DNA from: Elusimicrobiota bacterium | GTDB taxonomy: Bacteria > Elusimicrobiota > Elusimicrobia > Elusimicrobiales > UBA9959 | Direction: 5' to 3' | Assembly: GCA_030651035.1 (NCBI GenBank) | Contig: JAUSCK010000127.1 | Span: 1 to 43,654, forward strand | Length of the DNA stretch: 43,654 nucleotides | Shown here: one piece after another, positions 5,725-30,028 of the stretch | Layout of the letters: each line of letters opens with the position of its first letter | Position numbering within the stretch: the first letter of the stretch is position 1 | The notes under the pieces: generated by a model | Seen by the model: only the letters and a program-made list of their open reading frames with translations | Database searches by the model: none | What the model was told of the DNA's origin: nothing | Translations under genes and position numbers: made by a program

Positions 5725-6527
5725 AAAAAATCTGTTCCCTGTTCGCTTTAGTTCTCCTGTCCGGCTGCTCGCTCAACCGCGCCGCGGCGCGGGTCACCTC
5801 AGGCGTGATAGACAACGGCCTCCCTTCCGTCTTCAGCCAGTCCGACCCGCAGTACGTGAAGGAAGCCCTGCCGGCCAACCTGCAGCTGATGGAAATGCTT
5901 TTAGAGAGCCACCCGCATAACAAAAGACTGCTTGTCAACGCGGCCCAGGGCTTCTGCGGCTACGCGCTGATGTTCCTGGAGGACGAGAGCCCCGAGCGGG
6001 CCTCCGGTTTCTACGCCAAAGGCGAGGCCTACGCCGCGCGCGCCCTTAAAGGCGGCGCCCCGGCCGCCGCGAAGAAATGCGACGTTCCGCCGCTGTTCTG
6101 GAACACCTTCTGCAAGGCTCTTTACATAAACGTCAACCGCGACAACCCGGTAGCCATGGCCGAGCTGCCGACCCTTGAGCCGGCCATTGAAAAGCTGCTG
6201 GCGCTGGATCCTTCGTATTATTACAACGGCCCCCAGACCCTGATGGGAGCCTACTATTCCATGCGCCCGCGCATGTTCGGCGGCGATCCGGACAAGGCGA
6301 AAAAACATTTCGAGCTGGCGCTGAAAGGCGCGGGAGAGGCGTTCCTGCTGAACCGCTTCCTGTATGCCAGGATGGCCGCCGTGGCCGCGCAGGACCCGGA
6401 GCTTTTCGAGAGCCTGCTTAACGCGGTGATCTCGGCGGAGCCGAAGGAAGGCGGCACCCGCCTGCCCGACGAAGTGGCGAAAATAAAGGCAAAAAAACTA
6501 CTGGAGAAAAAAGATGAACTTTTTTAA
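5721..6527 (+). CDS. tatT: TatT-like TPR lipoprotein, TRAP transporter T-component
   Basis: This 268-residue protein starts with a lipoprotein signal peptide (MKKICSLFALVLLSGC), with the lipobox LSGC giving Cys16 as the lipid-bearing residue. The rest is helical and TPR-like, with the FGGDPDKAKKHFE segment characteristic of the TRAP TatT component family (Treponema Tp0956 type). Such proteins are periplasmic lipoproteins that bind ligand and work with a DctP-type receptor. The start overlaps the malQ stop (ATGA), and its own stop lies 14 bases inside the next gene, a DctP-type receptor, which strongly supports the partnership. The membrane subunits lie apart at 15279-17065. Confidence 0.85.
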   Translation: MKKICSLFALVLLSGCSLNRAAARVTSGVIDNGLPSVFSQSDPQYVKEALPANLQLMEMLLESHPHNKRLLVNAAQGFCGYALMFLEDESPERASGFYAKGEAYAARALKGGAPAAAKKCDVPPLFWNTFCKALYINVNRDNPVAMAELPTLEPAIEKLLALDPSYYYNGPQTLMGAYYSMRPRMFGGDPDKAKKHFELALKGAGEAFLLNRFLYARMAAVAAQDPELFESLLNAVISAEPKEGGTRLPDEVAKIKAKKLLEKKDELF

Positions 6528-7569
6528 AATAAAATTCCCTGCCGCCGGCAGCCGGCGGCCGGCAAAGATTTCGGCAATACTTCTGACTGGCTGCTGGCTG
6601 CTGGCTGCCGGCTGCCCTCTTCAGGCGCAGACCGTGGTCAAGTTCGCGACGCTGGCCCCGGACGGCTCCACCTGGATGAAGGCCATGAGACAGTTCGCGG
6701 AAGAGACCTCCGCCAAAACCGCGGGGCGCGTGAAGTTCAAGATATACCCGGGCGGGATCTCGGGCGACGACAAGGACGTGGTGCGCAAGATACGCCTCGG
6801 CCAGCTGCAGGCCGGCGGCTTCACCGGCCTGGGCATAGGCGAAATAGCGCCGGAAGCCAGGCTGCTGGACACGCCGTTCCTTTTTAAGAACGTCAGGGAA
6901 ATAGACTATATTTACAAGTCTTTGGACGCGGACTTCCGGAAGATCTTCGAAAGCCGGGGCTACGTGCTGCTGGGCTGGGCCGAGGTCGGCAATGTCAATA
7001 TTTTTTCCAACGCGCCGATCACCAGGCCCGAGGACCTGAAAAACATGAAGATGTGGCTGTGGGAAGGCGACCCGATAGCGGAAGCCATGTTCGCCGCGCT
7101 GAAAGTAAAACCTATCCCGCTCTCCGTAATGGACGTGATGAGTTCGCTGCAGACCGGCATGCTGAACGGGGTGTACGGCTCCCCCCTTTCCGTCATCGCG
7201 CTGCAGTGGTTCGCGCGCATGAAGTATGTTTTTTCCCTGCCTATAACCAACGCCTCCGGGGCGGCGCTGATCTCCAAAAAAACATTCGACGCGCTCTCCA
7301 GGGAAGACCAGAAGGCGCTGCTGGAACTGGGCGAAAAGCATTTCAGGGCGCTGACCCTGGCCAGCCGCAAGGACAACGAGCAGTCCATCGCCGTCCTTAA
7401 GGCAAAGAAGCTGGTGTTCACCGACCCCGCCGGCCCCGCCGTGGTCGCCCAGTTCGAGCGCGCGGGCGAGGAAGCCAGGCTCTCGCTGGTCGGCAAGCTC
7501 TACTCCAGGGAACTGCTGGACAAAGTGGAAGCCGCCCTGAAGGCCTTCCGCGCCGGCGGGAAGAAGTAG
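6514..7569 (+). CDS. TRAP transporter substrate-binding protein, DctP/TatP type
   Basis: This 351-residue protein is a DctP-family extracytoplasmic solute receptor. It has a long N-terminal signal (hydrophobic LLTGCWLLAAGC, residues ~23-34), which could be processed either as a lipoprotein at Cys34 or after LQA. The mature part begins VVKFATLAPDGSTWMKAM, followed by the family's GRVKFKIYPGG and the conserved late region NASGAALISKK and FDALSREDQKAL. DctP proteins usually bind carboxylates through a conserved Arg; the ligand here is not evident. It is translationally coupled to tatT (14-base overlap). The two match Tp0956-Tp0957 order. Confidence 0.9.
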   Translation: MNFFKIKFPAAGSRRPAKISAILLTGCWLLAAGCPLQAQTVVKFATLAPDGSTWMKAMRQFAEETSAKTAGRVKFKIYPGGISGDDKDVVRKIRLGQLQAGGFTGLGIGEIAPEARLLDTPFLFKNVREIDYIYKSLDADFRKIFESRGYVLLGWAEVGNVNIFSNAPITRPEDLKNMKMWLWEGDPIAEAMFAALKVKPIPLSVMDVMSSLQTGMLNGVYGSPLSVIALQWFARMKYVFSLPITNASGAALISKKTFDALSREDQKALLELGEKHFRALTLASRKDNEQSIAVLKAKKLVFTDPAGPAVVAQFERAGEEARLSLVGKLYSRELLDKVEAALKAFRAGGKK

Positions 7570-10053: not shown

Positions 10054-10292
10054 ACGGTTGCACCTTCCGGCTTAACGCAAAGCCGCACCGTCCCGTTGCA
10101 GCGGTTTTATAGAAGCAGATTCAATAGAATGTCCCAACCCATAAAAATGTTACTAAATTTTACGGGTGTTTGTGCGTCTTGCTGTGTGATATTAGTTACA
10201 CCGCGGTTCCCGCCGCTTTTCACCTGCCGGCAGCGCGGCGGCTCCCTCTTTCCTTTAGCGAAGTCCGCACGGAACTGATATAATCGAATTAC
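10054..10292. other. Divergent intergenic region between the kinase and the fluoride riboswitch
   Basis: There is no gene here. The part next to the kinase is unremarkable; on the minus strand a TATAAA (10106-10111) could be a weak -10 for the kinase. The other end holds the promoter of the riboswitch transcript (10255-10284). Confidence 0.4.
10255..10284 (+). promoter_or_regulatory. Promoter of the fluoride-riboswitch transcript
   Basis: A perfect -10 TATAAT lies at 10279-10284. A poor -35 candidate (TTAGCG, 10255-10260) is 18 bases upstream. The expected start at about 10291 falls directly before the first bases of the riboswitch aptamer, which supports both calls. Confidence 0.6.
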
Positions 10293-10358
10293 GGCGATGA
10301 TGTCCGCCGCCCCGCGAGTTTCCGGGGGAACCGTCCGAAAGGACTGATGACCTCTACC
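10293..10358 (+). promoter_or_regulatory. Fluoride riboswitch aptamer (crcB motif)
   Basis: The 5' part GGCGATGATGTCCGCC and the 3' part CTGATGACCTCTAC match the two conserved blocks of the crcB/fluoride RNA. Between them are a hairpin CCCCG/CGGGG (10310-10314 with 10323-10327) and a tetraloop hairpin GTCC-GAAA-GGAC (10333-10344). Fluoride riboswitches bind fluoride through magnesium ions and are usually ON switches that prevent termination. Here the last aptamer bases are also the first arm of a terminator (10349-10385). The downstream gene is a CPA2 antiporter, a class of gene often found under this RNA. I identified it by eye; an Infernal search with the fluoride model would settle it. Confidence 0.9.
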
Positions 10359-10385
10359 TCAAGCCAAAGGTAGAGGTCTTTTTTT
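10349..10385 (+). terminator. Riboswitch expression platform: intrinsic terminator
   Basis: GACCTCTACCT (10349-10359) pairs perfectly with AGGTAGAGGTC (10368-10378), followed by seven T (10379-10385). The left arm includes the conserved 3' end of the fluoride aptamer. Aptamer and terminator are therefore mutually exclusive, which predicts read-through when fluoride is bound. Confidence 0.93.
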
Positions 10386-10394
10386 AGGAGCGCT

Positions 10395-11528
10395 ATGAAC
10401 ACGGGAACCGTGCCTCTGTTAGCCGGGCTTTTAATTTTTGCGGCCAGCGTTTTAAGCCTGCGGCTGGGGCTTTCAGTGGCCATCTTTGAAATACTGCTGG
10501 GGCTGGCGGCCGGCAATCTCGGCCTGCGGCCGGAGGAGTGGATGGTCTACATTGCCGGTTTCGGCGGCATAGTCCTCACTTTCCTCGCAGGGGCTGAAGT
10601 GGACGCCAGGCTGCTCAGGGATAATTTCAGGCGGGCCGCCCTGCTCAGCTTTTTTTCCTTTTTCGCGCCGCTGGCGGCGGGCTTTCTTTTCTGCCGTTAC
10701 GCCGCGGGCTGGAGCGCCGCGGCCTCGGCCGTAGGCGGGATAGCGCTCTCCGAAACTTCGCTGGCGGTGGTCTACTCCGTGCTGGTGGAAACGGGCCGCG
10801 CCGGCTCCAAGACCGGCAAGCTCCTGATGGCCTGCACCTTCCTTACCAATACGCTGACCGCCCTGGCGCTCAGCGCCGCCTTCCTCAAGCCGAACCTTTA
10901 CACCCTGATCTTTCTCGCGGCTTCCGGCGCTTTCCTTTTCTTTGCCGGGCGTTTCTCCGGGGGCGTCCTACGTCACCCGGCGCTGGCCGGCAAGGTTATA
11001 GAGCCGGAGATAAAATATATTTTCTTCGTGCTGCTGGCTTTCATCTACCTCGCCGAGCTGGGCGCCAGCCAGGCCATGCTGCCGGCTTTTATCTTCGGGC
11101 TGCTAATGAGCGGCCACCTCAGGGACGGGGCGGCGGCCGCGCCGGTAAAAAACCGCCTGCGCACGGTGGCCTACGCTTTTATCACCCCGCTGTTCTTTAT
11201 AGTGGCGGGGATGAAGGTTTCTCTGGCGGCGCTCCGGGGCGCGGCGGGGCTGTTCGCCGCGCTTTTCCTGGTCAGACAGGCGGCCAAGTTCGCGGGAGTA
11301 TATTTTTTCGCGCGCAAGTTTTTTCCGGCCAACAGCGGCTACTTCACATTGCTGATGTCCACCGGGCTTACCTTCGGGCTCATGGCGGCCCTGTTCGGGC
11401 TGAACGCGGGGCTGCTGGACCAGGGGCAGTACTCGGTGCTGACCGGTGTGTTGATAGCCAGCGCGGTCATCCCCACCTTCGCGGCCCAGCGCTGGTTCCC
11501 GCCGCTGGAAGAAGAAGATTTGCTATAG
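10395..11528 (+). CDS. CPA2-type cation:proton antiporter under fluoride riboswitch control
   Basis: This 377-residue membrane protein has 10-12 hydrophobic segments and the layout of the CPA2/KefB family (Na+/H+ exchanger domain), without the C-terminal TrkA-N or TrkA-C regulatory domains. Marks are LLGLAAGNLGL near 36-46, FLAGAEVD near 62-69 and a charged loop before FITPLFFIVAGMKV near 265-278, typical for the family. It lies at the inner membrane and exchanges a cation or anion with protons. The fluoride riboswitch just upstream (terminator ends ten bases before the ATG) suggests a role in fluoride stress, by direct export or by pH and ion adjustment. AGGAG lies at 10386-10390. Known fluoride exporters (CrcB/Fluc, CLC-F) are absent here. 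Confidence 0.88.
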   Translation: MNTGTVPLLAGLLIFAASVLSLRLGLSVAIFEILLGLAAGNLGLRPEEWMVYIAGFGGIVLTFLAGAEVDARLLRDNFRRAALLSFFSFFAPLAAGFLFCRYAAGWSAAASAVGGIALSETSLAVVYSVLVETGRAGSKTGKLLMACTFLTNTLTALALSAAFLKPNLYTLIFLAASGAFLFFAGRFSGGVLRHPALAGKVIEPEIKYIFFVLLAFIYLAELGASQAMLPAFIFGLLMSGHLRDGAAAAPVKNRLRTVAYAFITPLFFIVAGMKVSLAALRGAAGLFAALFLVRQAAKFAGVYFFARKFFPANSGYFTLLMSTGLTFGLMAALFGLNAGLLDQGQYSVLTGVLIASAVIPTFAAQRWFPPLEEEDLL

Positions 11529-11550: not shown

Positions 11551-12927
11551 ATGGAAAAACCGGACCTTATCCTGGTTGACGAAAAAGATTTTTACTATCC
11601 GGACCTGGAATTGCCCCCGCTGCTTGCCTGGGTATACATATTTATAACGCGCTTTCTCGACGCCGTGCTGTGGTTCGAGCCGGACCCCCAGAAACTCGCC
11701 GTGCCTCTGCTCTCGGCTTACGCCAAAGACGCGGGCTTCCAGGTCGCGGTGGTCCGCGGCGTCTCGAATTATTTCTTCAGGAGGCGCAGGTTCATCGAAC
11801 TGCTGCGCCTGAAGCCGCTGGCCGTGGGGATCTCCACGGCGGCCGTAAAAAAGATCTCCACCGTGCGGAGAGTGGCGGCCATCGCGCGGCGGCACAGCCC
11901 CGGGTCTCTCATAATACTCGGCGGCTACGGGGCACAGTACTCCCCGGAGATGCGCAAAGCCGGCGACATAACCGTGACCGGTTACGGAGAGGCCGCGCTG
12001 GTCTGGCTCCTGCGGCGCCTGAAGTCCGGCTCAGGCATCACCGACGGAGTCGTAGCCGACCGCTACGGCTCGAAAATACTGCCGGGCAGCATCGGCTACA
12101 GCGGGCCGGAAAAAATGCTTTTCCCCGACTGGAGCGCGGCCCCCGCGCGCCCCAGGCATTATAATATCGAGGCCTCGCGCGGATGCAGGTTCAACTGCGT
12201 ATACTGCAACTTCCCGGGCAGGAAAAAACAGGTCTACAGGCCTGTGGAGGACGTCGCGGCGGAGATGGCTTGGGCGGTGGAGCGCTTCAGGGCGAAGGAA
12301 TTCGATTTCGTCGACTCGAACTTTACTTCGGAGCCGGGCTTCGCCTCAAAGCTGTCCGGACTGCTGGGGAAGAGCGGCCTTAAGGTGCGCTGGCGCTGCT
12401 TCGCGCGGGTGGCGGACTTCGCGCATTATCCGGGGCTGGCTGACGAAATGGCGGAAGCCGGCTGCACCCGGATCTTCCTCGGCATAGAATCCATAAACGA
12501 CTCCATCCTTGTAAAAATGAGGAAGGGCTACACTTTCGCGGAGGTAGAAGCCGGCATATCGGAAATAGAAAAGTCGGGCATACCCATGCACGCAAATTTC
12601 ATCGTCGGCTTTCCGGGAGAGACCGCGGAGACCGTGAGGGAGACCGAGAAGTTCATAAAAAAGCACCGCTTTAAATCCGTCTACCTTTCCGCCCTTATGG
12701 TCCCCGAGGAACTTTATGAGCGCGCCAGGCGGACCCCGGAAGAATTTAACAACCTTAGGGGGAACTCCCCCCGGACATGGGCGCACGACACCATGGACTA
12801 CAGGACAGCGGTCAAACTTGCGGGCCGGTCCGCCCTGAAGGTGAACCTCAGCAAATTCAGACCCGTGGTATTCCCGCTCGGCACTAACGTGCCCGACCCG
12901 GATAAAGACATCCTCCCCCCGGTTTAA
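11551..12927 (+). CDS. B12-binding-type radical SAM protein
   Basis: This 458-residue protein has an N-terminal Rossmann-like B12-binding-type domain (residues ~1-185, with LIILGGYGAQYSPE and TVTGYGE) and a radical SAM domain with the cluster motif CRFNCVYC (CX3CX2C, about residues 212-219) after the conserved EASRG. Later marks are FLGIES and FIVGFPGET. It should cut S-adenosylmethionine to start a radical reaction, possibly with cobalamin; the usual DxHxxG cobalamin ligand motif is not visible, so B12 may not bind. Substrate unknown. It lies 22 bases after the antiporter with no terminator between, so it is probably on the fluoride-controlled transcript. Confidence 0.85.
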   Translation: MEKPDLILVDEKDFYYPDLELPPLLAWVYIFITRFLDAVLWFEPDPQKLAVPLLSAYAKDAGFQVAVVRGVSNYFFRRRRFIELLRLKPLAVGISTAAVKKISTVRRVAAIARRHSPGSLIILGGYGAQYSPEMRKAGDITVTGYGEAALVWLLRRLKSGSGITDGVVADRYGSKILPGSIGYSGPEKMLFPDWSAAPARPRHYNIEASRGCRFNCVYCNFPGRKKQVYRPVEDVAAEMAWAVERFRAKEFDFVDSNFTSEPGFASKLSGLLGKSGLKVRWRCFARVADFAHYPGLADEMAEAGCTRIFLGIESINDSILVKMRKGYTFAEVEAGISEIEKSGIPMHANFIVGFPGETAETVRETEKFIKKHRFKSVYLSALMVPEELYERARRTPEEFNNLRGNSPRTWAHDTMDYRTAVKLAGRSALKVNLSKFRPVVFPLGTNVPDPDKDILPPV

Positions 12928-15278: not shown

Positions 15279-15803
15279 ATGCGTTTTGCGCTGAAAATTG
15301 AAGAGTACATAGTAAAGGCCGAAAAAGCCGTGGTGGTGGGGCTGATCTTCGCCATGGTGGGGCTTTCCTTCCTGCAGGTGCTGCTGCGCATCTTCTTCCA
15401 CTCCGGCATAGTCTGGCTGGACCCGCTGCTCAGGCACATGGTGCTTTGGGCCGGCCTCACAGGGGCCGCCCTGGCCGCCCGCTACTCCCATCACTTCGCG
15501 CTGGAGGCTTTCGTCAAATCCGCGCCTAAAAAGCTGCACCGCCCCCTTGAGATCTTCGCGGACGTTTTCATGATAGCCGCCTCCTGCCTGCTCTTCCACG
15601 CCTCTTATAAATTCATCCGCGACGAATTCGCGGCCGGCTCCACGGCTTTCTACATAGACCGCCTGGGAGTGCCGGGCGGCTGGGCTGAAATAATAATACC
15701 CGCCTCTTTCGCGCTTATAGCCTACCACGCTTTCATGGGCATTTTCCGCCCTGAGGACGCCCCGGAGGCCTCCGCTTTCGGCGTCCCCGAGGTGCACAAA
15801 TAA
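15279..15803 (+). CDS. TRAP transporter small permease, DctQ type
   Basis: This 174-residue protein has four hydrophobic helices and family marks VSGL-like LSFLQVLLRIFF (about 28-39), WLDPLLRHMVLWAGLTGAALAAR (about 47-69) and a conserved H in SHHFALEAF. DctQ is the small membrane subunit that pairs with DctM in the inner membrane. The last A of its TAA stop is the first base of dctM's ATG. The receptor components TatT and DctP are at 5721-7569, on the same strand but separated by unrelated genes. Confidence 0.88.
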   Translation: MRFALKIEEYIVKAEKAVVVGLIFAMVGLSFLQVLLRIFFHSGIVWLDPLLRHMVLWAGLTGAALAARYSHHFALEAFVKSAPKKLHRPLEIFADVFMIAASCLLFHASYKFIRDEFAAGSTAFYIDRLGVPGGWAEIIIPASFALIAYHAFMGIFRPEDAPEASAFGVPEVHK

Positions 15804-17065
15804 TGGGCATAATAGTCGGCCTGCTGATACTGCTGCTCGCCTTTCTGGGCGCGCCTGTCTTCACGCTTATCGGCGCCGGCTCCATCTACCTTTTTTCGGG
15901 AGCGGGCATAGATTCTTCGGCCGTGATAGTGGAGATGCTGCGCCTGGCTTCGCTGCCGGCGCTGATAGCGATACCGCTGTTCACTTTTTCAGGCTACCTC
16001 CTGGCGGAGAGCAGGGCCCCGCAGCGCATGCTGGCCCTGGCGGAGGCGCTGTTCGGCGCGCTGCCCGGCGGGCTGGCCATAGTGGCCCTTTTCACCACCG
16101 CGCTTTTCACGGCCTTTACCGGCGCCTCGGGCGTCACCATAATAGCGCTGGGCGGCCTTCTTTATCCCATGCTTTCCAAGCAGGGCTACCCGGAAAAATT
16201 CACGCTGGGCCTGCTTACGACCACCGGCAGCCTGGGCCTGCTTTTCCCCCCCAGCCTCCCGATAATACTTTACGGCCTGGTGGCCAAGATAAACATAGAC
16301 AGCCTTTTCAAGGCCGGCCTCCTGCCGGGCGGGCTGCTGCTGCTGGCTCTCTCGGCCTACGCCCTCTTTACCGCCCGCAAGGCGGGCATAAAGGGCGTTC
16401 CGTTCCGCCTGGCGGAACTTAAAAAGGCCAGCGCGGCAGCGGCCTGGGAAATACCGCTCCCCTTCGTGATAATAGGCGGAATTTACATGGGCCTGTTCAC
16501 GGCCGGCGAGGCCGCCTCGGTGATGGCTTTCTACGTCCTGGTGACCGAGGTTTTTATCTACAGGGACCTGAAGCTGTTCGCCGACGTGCCGCGCGTGGCG
16601 GTTAAAAGCATGCTGCTGGTGGGCGCCATCTTCCTGGTGCTGGGCACCGCGCTGGGCTTTACCAACTACCTGATAGACGCGGAGATACCGAAGAACATCT
16701 TCGAGTGGCTGCACGTCTACGTCTCCAGCAAGGTGGTGTTCCTGCTGCTCCTCAACGCCTTCCTGCTGGTCATCAACATGATAGAGATCTTCTCGGCGAT
16801 AATCATCGTGGTGCCGATAATAGTGCCGGTGGCGGCGCAGTACGGGATAAACCCGGTGCACCTGGGGATAATTTTCCTGCTGAACCTGGAGATAGGCTAC
16901 ATGCTGCCGCCGCTGGGGCTGAACCTTTTCCTGGCCAGCTCGCGCTTTCACAGGAAGCTGCCGGAGCTCTACCGCGCCACCGGGCCGTTCCTGCTGATAC
17001 TGCTGGTGATGCTGGCGCTTGTGACGTACCTGCCGTCCTTAAGCCTGCTAGGGGCCGGCGGATGA
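15803..17065 (+). CDS. TRAP transporter large permease, DctM type
   Basis: This 420-residue membrane protein belongs to the ion transporter superfamily. It has about 12 hydrophobic segments and the DctM marks: an early LGAPVF region, IPLFTFSGYLLAES (about 54-67), FTAFTGASGVTIIALGGLLYP (about 102-122), PPSLPIILYG, and the second repeat GLFTAGEAASVMAFY (about 230-244). It carries out sodium-driven uptake of the solute delivered by the periplasmic receptor. It begins on the last base of the dctQ stop codon. Confidence 0.93.
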   Translation: MGIIVGLLILLLAFLGAPVFTLIGAGSIYLFSGAGIDSSAVIVEMLRLASLPALIAIPLFTFSGYLLAESRAPQRMLALAEALFGALPGGLAIVALFTTALFTAFTGASGVTIIALGGLLYPMLSKQGYPEKFTLGLLTTTGSLGLLFPPSLPIILYGLVAKINIDSLFKAGLLPGGLLLLALSAYALFTARKAGIKGVPFRLAELKKASAAAAWEIPLPFVIIGGIYMGLFTAGEAASVMAFYVLVTEVFIYRDLKLFADVPRVAVKSMLLVGAIFLVLGTALGFTNYLIDAEIPKNIFEWLHVYVSSKVVFLLLLNAFLLVINMIEIFSAIIIVVPIIVPVAAQYGINPVHLGIIFLLNLEIGYMLPPLGLNLFLASSRFHRKLPELYRATGPFLLILLVMLALVTYLPSLSLLGAGG

Positions 17066-28978: not shown

Positions 28979-30028
28979 ATGTCTGACTACCTGGTAATAG
29001 CCGGCTTGACGGTAATAATGGGCCTCACGCTGGTCCTCCCGTTTTCAGTGAAGCGCGTAGAGGAGGAACTTGAGGCCTTCCTTTTCGTGATGGGGCTCGG
29101 CGCGGTCACCATCTCCGGGATCTGGAGCCTCCACCTGGTAAAAGAAGCCTTTAAAGAGCCCCTTGCCATCACGGCTGCCGTGGGCATTGTGGGCTGGATG
29201 TTCAGGGAAGTGCGCCACCACCTGCGAGGCTGGATGGACGCGCTCATTAAAAAGCTGGGCCTCGGCGGGGCGATTTTCGTGATAGTCTTATTTCTGGGCC
29301 TGGGCTCCAGCGTGTTCACCGCCATCGTAGCGGCTATAATGCTGGCCGAGGTGGTGACCCTGCTGAAGCTCAGCCGCGAATACGAGGTAAAGCTGACGGT
29401 TTACGCCTGCTACGCCATCGGCCTGGGCGCGGCGCTCACCCCGCTTGGGGAACCGCTTTCGACCATTGTAGTGGCCAAATTAAAAGGCCCGCCGCATTAC
29501 GCTGATTTCTTTTACCTGATAAAACAGGTCGGGATGTGGATAGTCCCCGGGGTGCTGCTTTGCGCGGCCATGGCGTCCCGCGGCGCAAAAAAGGCCGACA
29601 CAGGTGAACCCGGTCTCCGTGAAGACGCGCACGACACTAACAGGATTATCGCCACGCGCGCCGGCAAGGTATACATTTTCGTGATGGCCCTCATTTTCCT
29701 GGGCGCCGGGCTGTCGCCGCTGGCCGAGCGCTTCGTGGCGCAGATGCCCACTTGGGCGCTCTTCTGGGCGAACTCCGTGTCCGCCATCCTCGACAACGCC
29801 ACGCTGGCCGCCGCCGAGATAGCGCCGGTCATGACCGACCGGCAGATAACTTTCATACTGATGGGGCTGCTTGTATCCGGCGGCATGCTTATCCCCGGCA
29901 ATATCCCGAACATCGTCAGCTCGGCAAAGCTCGGAATAAAGTCCCGCGAATGGGCAAAAGCCGCCCTCCCCTTCGGCGGCGCGCTGATGCTGGCTTATTT
30001 TATAATTATGACGCTGCTGGTGAAGTAA
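28979..30028 (+). CDS. DUF1646 family membrane transporter
   Basis: This 349-residue protein has about nine hydrophobic segments and matches the DUF1646 family, a branch of the ion transporter superfamily. Marks are GLGSSVFTAIVAAIMLAEV (about 106-124), IGLGAALTPLGEPLSTI (about 145-161) and the late SVSAILDNATLAAAEIAP (about 264-281) and GGMLIPGNIPNIV. The duplicated helix-loop signatures are typical of ion-coupled carriers. Substrate unknown. AAAGGA precedes the ATG. It lies 26 bases before tryptophanase, so it may carry tryptophan, indole or a related compound. Confidence 0.82.
   Translation: MSDYLVIAGLTVIMGLTLVLPFSVKRVEEELEAFLFVMGLGAVTISGIWSLHLVKEAFKEPLAITAAVGIVGWMFREVRHHLRGWMDALIKKLGLGGAIFVIVLFLGLGSSVFTAIVAAIMLAEVVTLLKLSREYEVKLTVYACYAIGLGAALTPLGEPLSTIVVAKLKGPPHYADFFYLIKQVGMWIVPGVLLCAAMASRGAKKADTGEPGLREDAHDTNRIIATRAGKVYIFVMALIFLGAGLSPLAERFVAQMPTWALFWANSVSAILDNATLAAAEIAPVMTDRQITFILMGLLVSGGMLIPGNIPNIVSSAKLGIKSREWAKAALPFGGALMLAYFIIMTLLVK

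Follow-up and report, generated by a model that had tools for sequence, protein, structure and literature searches.

The window, by which we mean the whole 43.7-kb stretch of DNA analysed here, comes from an Elusimicrobiota genome of 4.47 Mb in 320 contigs, which is 96% complete. A fluoride riboswitch is found at positions 10284-10363, and the start of a transporter gene of the PF00999/CPA2 type (10395-11528, coding for a 377 aa protein with an NhaA fold) lies 32 nt after its end. All features of the window described here are on the forward strand. A gene for a B12-binding radical SAM protein (11551-12927) begins 22 nt 3' of the transporter and is possibly co-transcribed with it. We do not consider it part of the system, as it adjoins the transporter in only one other of the genomes examined (G138). 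The window also contains two TRAP transporter genes, DctP (6514-7566) and DctM (15803-17062), with 8 kb between them, and a gene for a DUF1646 protein (28979-30025). DUF1646 is the family which first gave the Na+ riboswitch class its name, and no riboswitch is detected before this gene at the Rfam cut-off.

The preliminary description had proposed a fluoride riboswitch from the sequence alone, and the covariance model agrees with it. RF01734 matches over its full length (model positions 1-64) with 41.9 bits, against a gathering threshold of 34 (E 2.2e-8, cmscan against Rfam). No other Rfam family reaches its cut-off in the window, and the 4.47-Mb genome has no second copy of RF01734: its sole copy is the leader of the transporter gene. 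The aptamer, as placed by cmscan and by pair counts in 21 relatives, has P1 at 10293-10308, an extra hairpin at 10310-10327, P3 at 10333-10344 and a pseudoknot between 10299-10303 and 10350-10354. The predicted fold of the RNA from 10284 to 10390 (-43.6 kcal/mol, z -3.6) contains P1, the extra C-rich hairpin, P3 and also the terminator.

An intrinsic terminator follows at 10349-10385, with an 11-bp stem (10349-10378) and then TTTTTTT. It is found by the terminator scan, by folding and by conservation. Its 5' arm is the 3' strand of the aptamer, as had been claimed, and includes the pseudoknot strand 10350-10354, so the bound aptamer and the terminator are mutually exclusive. Upstream, the TATAAT reported before the aptamer (10279-10284) is the core of a perfect extended -10 element, TGaTATAAT (10276-10284), and transcription is predicted to start at about 10291, in the first bases of P1. 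A -10-like hexamer is found directly 5' of the aptamer in most of 24 relatives. A full sigma-70 promoter was rejected: a scan finds no site at 9/12 and no convincing -35, which leaves the extended -10 alone. A probable ribosome-binding site, AGGAG, is located at 10386-10390.

The leader is well conserved as a structure. In the 21 relatives, 99.2% of the cells in P1, P2, P3 and the terminator are paired, and eight pairs are compensated, with both sides changed, against 1.7 in shuffled controls. Pairing collapses if the partners are shifted by one column. In the terminator 99% of the cells are paired, and three of its ten counted pairs are compensated. P1 and the four standard pairs of the pseudoknot are invariant. 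The pseudoknot of this genus has four standard pairs out of five, the fifth being U.C or A.C, and one A-U pair is found where the Rfam consensus has G-C. The leader is a living switch, with a presumed binding of fluoride that is taken from the RF01734 class.

Six close homologues have no riboswitch ahead of the gene in a search with permissive filters. In one of them, L109 (G152:C108), a relic riboswitch can be seen by eye before the transporter gene at 1489. Half of the aptamer (P1 and the loop) has been deleted, P3 and the terminator are kept, and the transporter gene is intact. In L085 (G135:C343, 1609-2061) the riboswitch is intact, but a large internal deletion has disrupted the transporter gene behind it; this genome has a CLC of the ordinary type.

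PF00999 (104.9 bits, cut-off 26.2) is the sole domain of the 377 aa protein, so there is no TrkA/RCK domain of the kind found at the C-terminus of KefB and KefC. The switch thus precedes a CPA2-type gene without TrkA, as the preliminary description had stated. The name KefB-like given there is imprecise: NapA, and not KefB, is the closest solved structure, in the profile comparison as well as in fold. The NCBIfam CPA2 model TIGR00932 gives 74.3 bits (E 1.1e-20) and does not reach its curated score of 238.3, which indicates a related protein below the cut-off. With the single protein, phmmer finds no match in the PDB. A profile is required, and NapA structures are then the best among those solved (E 2e-19). 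The AlphaFold2 model (pLDDT 86, pTM 0.86) has the helix breaks of the NhaA fold, near residues 120-122 and 322-325, and Foldseek with this model retrieves NapA (5bz2, TM 0.80) and also PaNhaP and KefC. With PF00999 and an NhaA fold with two broken helices, the protein belongs in the CPA superfamily. Values of dN/dS between 0.09 and 0.14, in comparison with seven close relatives in the genus, point to purifying selection.

The ion-binding site of this protein is unusual. CPA proteins have a motif X1X2X3X4...X6D7...[R/K]8, in which D7 is present in 94% of the proteins and has repeatedly been shown to be essential (Masrati et al. 2018, PMC6181914). The window protein reads E120-T121-S122-L123 ... 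T151-N152 ... K298. Glu120 (codon 10752-10754) is at motif position 1, in the unwound TM4, where most relatives have Thr. Asn152 (codon 10848-10850) is at position 7, where most CPA proteins have Asp, and aligns with D157 of NapA. Among 117 homologues, residues 120 and 152 are Thr/Asp in 71, Glu/Asn in 42, Glu/Asp in three and Cys/Asn in one; Thr/Asn is never found. The Asp of position 7 is thus replaced by Asn in the window protein and in 42 of 42 Glu/Asn sequences, and the basic residue of position 8, Lys298, is present in all 117, as are E32, E132 and K207. Every intact copy in the genus combines Asp152 to Asn with Thr120 to Glu.

A tree of the homologues, built without columns 120 and 152, places the Glu/Asn form in one clade (SH-aLRT 99), which includes sequences from Nitrospinota, Nitrospirota, Deltaproteobacteria, a Methanobrevibacter and Elusimicrobiota. 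In Methanoperedens the tree indicates a separate gain of Glu beside Asp. Since the swap arose about once, Glu/Asn is better described as a conserved substitution pair. We do not claim statistical covariation of both positions, as an independent-pairs test has too few events. Judging from the alignment, at least one carboxylate is retained at the site, with the single Cys/Asn sequence as the exception, and it would have shifted from TM5 to the TM4 break. Glu120, Asn152 and Lys298 are probably close to each other, according to the NapA alignment and the published motif. The leader of the archaeal member of the clade (L179, Methanobrevibacter sp. 87.7) resembles the riboswitch but scores below the Rfam threshold; this homologue suggests a transfer between domains.

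Recognised fluoride exporters belong to two families: CrcB/Fluc, with the eukaryotic FEX, and CLC-F. The window genome, at 96% completeness, lacks both CrcB and CLC and has no further PF00999 protein. We have compared it with a sample of 341 genomes of the phylum, most of them MAGs, in which 88 copies of the riboswitch are found in 74 genomes. The commonest gene within 600 nt 3' of these copies is the transporter family (43), followed by CrcB (22) and CLC (3). Among the other 20 we have read genes for an enolase, an EamA transporter, an MFS-like protein and a Nuo-like protein. The 74 genomes divide into 42 with the transporter only, 24 with CrcB only, three with both and five with neither (Fisher p 1.5e-11, with both families counted at the search tool's own thresholds and species which are not independent). 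All five genomes with neither have some CLC. The count by genera, which partly corrects for the dependence between species, gives 14 with the transporter, 13 with CrcB, one mixed and one with neither (p 2.9e-6).

In the whole sample, some CrcB or CLC is present in 11 of the 49 genomes with the transporter, against 189 of the 292 without it; the baseline for CrcB is 121 of these 292. Swaps are found even within genera: three of them (g1, g13 and g64) have the transporter in some species and CrcB in others. Within one family (f1), the exclusion between transporter and CrcB is borderline if all genomes are counted (p 0.057), and p is 0.0005 for the genomes with a riboswitch. The three genomes with both types (G143, G145 and G154) have a second transporter, 40% identical, which shares an operon with Usp and CrcB. 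In the last of them, four riboswitches lie within 11 kb in a fluoride island (L041, G154:C7, 1-11160), with genes for enolase, a dynamin-like GTPase, the operon transporter-Usp-CrcB-DUF190/CBS, an EamA transporter and a 5'-nucleotidase. Pieces of an island of this type are found in G143 (L092, G143:C48) and in G145.

We have also examined whether the CLCs of genomes with the transporter are CLC-F, using their motifs, and have discarded this idea: most of those outside Elusimicrobiota have the ordinary GREGP, and one has no recognised motif. In genus g1 (CLC loci L213-L219) the motif scan gives GREGP in one genome and, in several, a CLC of about 456 aa with the unusual GKEGP in place of GREGP or GREGT. 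Three CLCs linked to a riboswitch have GREGT or GREGA.

The transporter is not limited to this phylum. A single scan across the GTDB species genomes yields 80 loci, in Nitrospirota, Nitrospinota, Methanoperedens and other archaea, Chloroflexota, Rokubacteria, Actinomycetota and other groups. In most of the loci scanned for it, and in most unrelated phyla, a fluoride riboswitch is located directly 5' of the gene, and some that fall below the threshold can be seen by eye. CrcB is present in three and CLC in seven of 50 genomes with the transporter outside the phylum, and the other 40 have neither. One class of Chloroflexota has CrcB in 97 of 259 genomes: two of the seven with the transporter, a very small number, against 95 of the 252 others. 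Homologues with 37-40% identity, preceded by RF01734, are found on enterobacterial, Rubrobacter, Rhizobium and Methylocystis plasmids, where they adjoin genes for Usp, a MutS-like protein or CrcB. In homologues with Glu120/Asn152 from Nitrospirota and Deltaproteobacteria (L132, L134, L136, L138, L143 and L160) no fluoride riboswitch is detected ahead of the gene.

These results suggest that a CPA-superfamily transporter under riboswitch control may be an unrecognised third route for fluoride out of cells, since the known exporters are almost never found in such genomes and the ion-binding site has been rebuilt. The earlier proposal that this protein helps cells to survive fluoride is well supported by the genomic data; the near exclusion between the transporter and CrcB, and the loss of the Asp held to be essential in CPA exchangers, had escaped that description. 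The best reading is a fluoride-induced transporter that would do the job of the exporters: it would move fluoride itself, or else lower the pH of the cytoplasm and let HF escape. Fluoride would enter as HF and bind the nascent leader RNA. To judge from the RF01734 class, this would keep the 3' strand 10350-10354 in the pseudoknot, which would block the terminator and allow the transcription of the transporter gene. The transporter would then cut cytoplasmic fluoride, the role of CrcB or CLC-F elsewhere, presumably by moving it with proton coupling through the NhaA-fold site. The single buried carboxylate, Asp152 of TM5 in the relatives, would here be Glu120 at the TM4 break, near the invariant Lys298. 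We hold with moderate confidence that the transporter lowers cytoplasmic fluoride in place of CrcB or CLC-F, most likely as a proton-coupled fluoride carrier. Somewhat more tentatively, the whole riboswitch-linked CPA2 clade may be a third family of microbial fluoride exporters, which many uncultured bacteria and archaea would use instead of CrcB and CLC-F, with a Glu120/Asn152 branch which would have moved the coupling carboxylate from TM5 to the TM4 break.

The published reading is different. Na+/H+ antiporters are the next-most common fluoride riboswitch genes after exporters, and are ascribed to pH homeostasis in the summary of Baker et al. 2012 given in PMC11139923. The preliminary description had named this link as known, and its remark that such a function is not well described for CPA2 proteins must be qualified, as the antiporters are already named there as riboswitch genes. 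The transporter would then be an ordinary Na+/H+ antiporter that resets the pH after HF entry. Operons with a universal stress protein, enolase and CrcB show that a helper role is possible; in Enterobacter, operons with enolase, Usp and CrcB confer fluoride resistance (PMC5533749). The family shares operons with CrcB in L130 and L041, which counts against the exporter reading and fits a helper as well. A helper, however, is expected to co-occur with exporters, and mutual exclusion with CrcB is found instead, which is hard to reconcile with a mere helper and argues for a substitute. The motif Asp7 is also lost, and we consider pH homeostasis improbable.

A Kef-like K+(Na+)/H+ exchanger would replace an exporter too, by lowering the cytoplasmic pH on exposure to fluoride, and would account for the exclusion of CrcB equally well. 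Since the pH difference governs how fluoride distributes, as HF, a collapse of this difference would let HF leave without any fluoride carrier. The protein retains the CPA fold, a carboxylate and Lys298, and acclimated yeast resist fluoride by intracellular acidification, according to a reference cited in PMC11139923. Nevertheless, this protein has Asn in place of the Asp that is described as essential for cation/proton exchange, and a growth cost would be expected. We regard this mechanism as rather unlikely, if a little less so than simple pH homeostasis. The loss of Asp7 leads us to prefer a fluoride carrier over an acidifying exchanger, but the data do not separate the two. The same loss could mean that the Glu120/Asn152 form is a degenerate CPA protein, or one with altered coupling, and that export is due to an unknown gene at another site of the genome, in which no other exporter of a known family is found. 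A dN/dS of about 0.1, the conservation of Glu120, Asn152 and Lys298 in the whole genus and the control of this gene by the only fluoride riboswitch of the genome make this highly improbable. Against the reading as an exporter we should also note that the absence of CrcB and CLC has been counted on MAGs from species that are not independent, and that some Glu/Asn homologues in other phyla have no detectable riboswitch.

If this clade exports fluoride, or frees HF by acidification, it would explain how many bacteria and archaea without either exporter survive fluoride. It would also provide new parts for the engineering of defluorinating microbes, and it would mean that the Asp described as essential in CPA proteins can change its place. 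There is a precedent for such a reassignment: EriC/CLC-F was for a long time wrongly annotated as a chloride transporter, and it was the riboswitch that revealed its role (PMC7266159). In the literature searched, with most subscription papers outside our reach, no study turned up in which the transport of fluoride by a CPA2 protein was put to an experimental test.

In summary, the riboswitch class and its link with antiporters are already known; the pattern of exclusion with CrcB and the relocated carboxylate are new. The leader resembles the RF01734 terminator switch of the B. cereus type in its aptamer, in the pseudoknot strand shared with an intrinsic terminator and in its site before a transporter gene. 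It differs in having A-U for one G-C pair of the pseudoknot, one U.C and the extra C-rich hairpin between P1 and P3. The riboswitch-linked antiporters of enterobacterial plasmids (L127) and of Methylocystis (L130) belong to the same family (37-40% identity) and have the same riboswitch directly upstream, but they keep Thr120/Asp152 and are found in operons with Usp, MutS-like or CrcB genes, while the window gene has Glu120/Asn152 and no CrcB. NapA of Thermus (PDB 4bwz/5bz2) is similar in fold and profile, and its T126, S127 and K305 correspond to Thr121, Ser122 and Lys298; at about 20% identity, its D156-D157 and A125 are replaced in the window protein by T151-N152 and E120. CrcB/Fluc and CLC-F have folds unrelated to that of the transporter and no sequence relation with it, but they share its regulatory RNA and apparently occupy the same slot in the genome.
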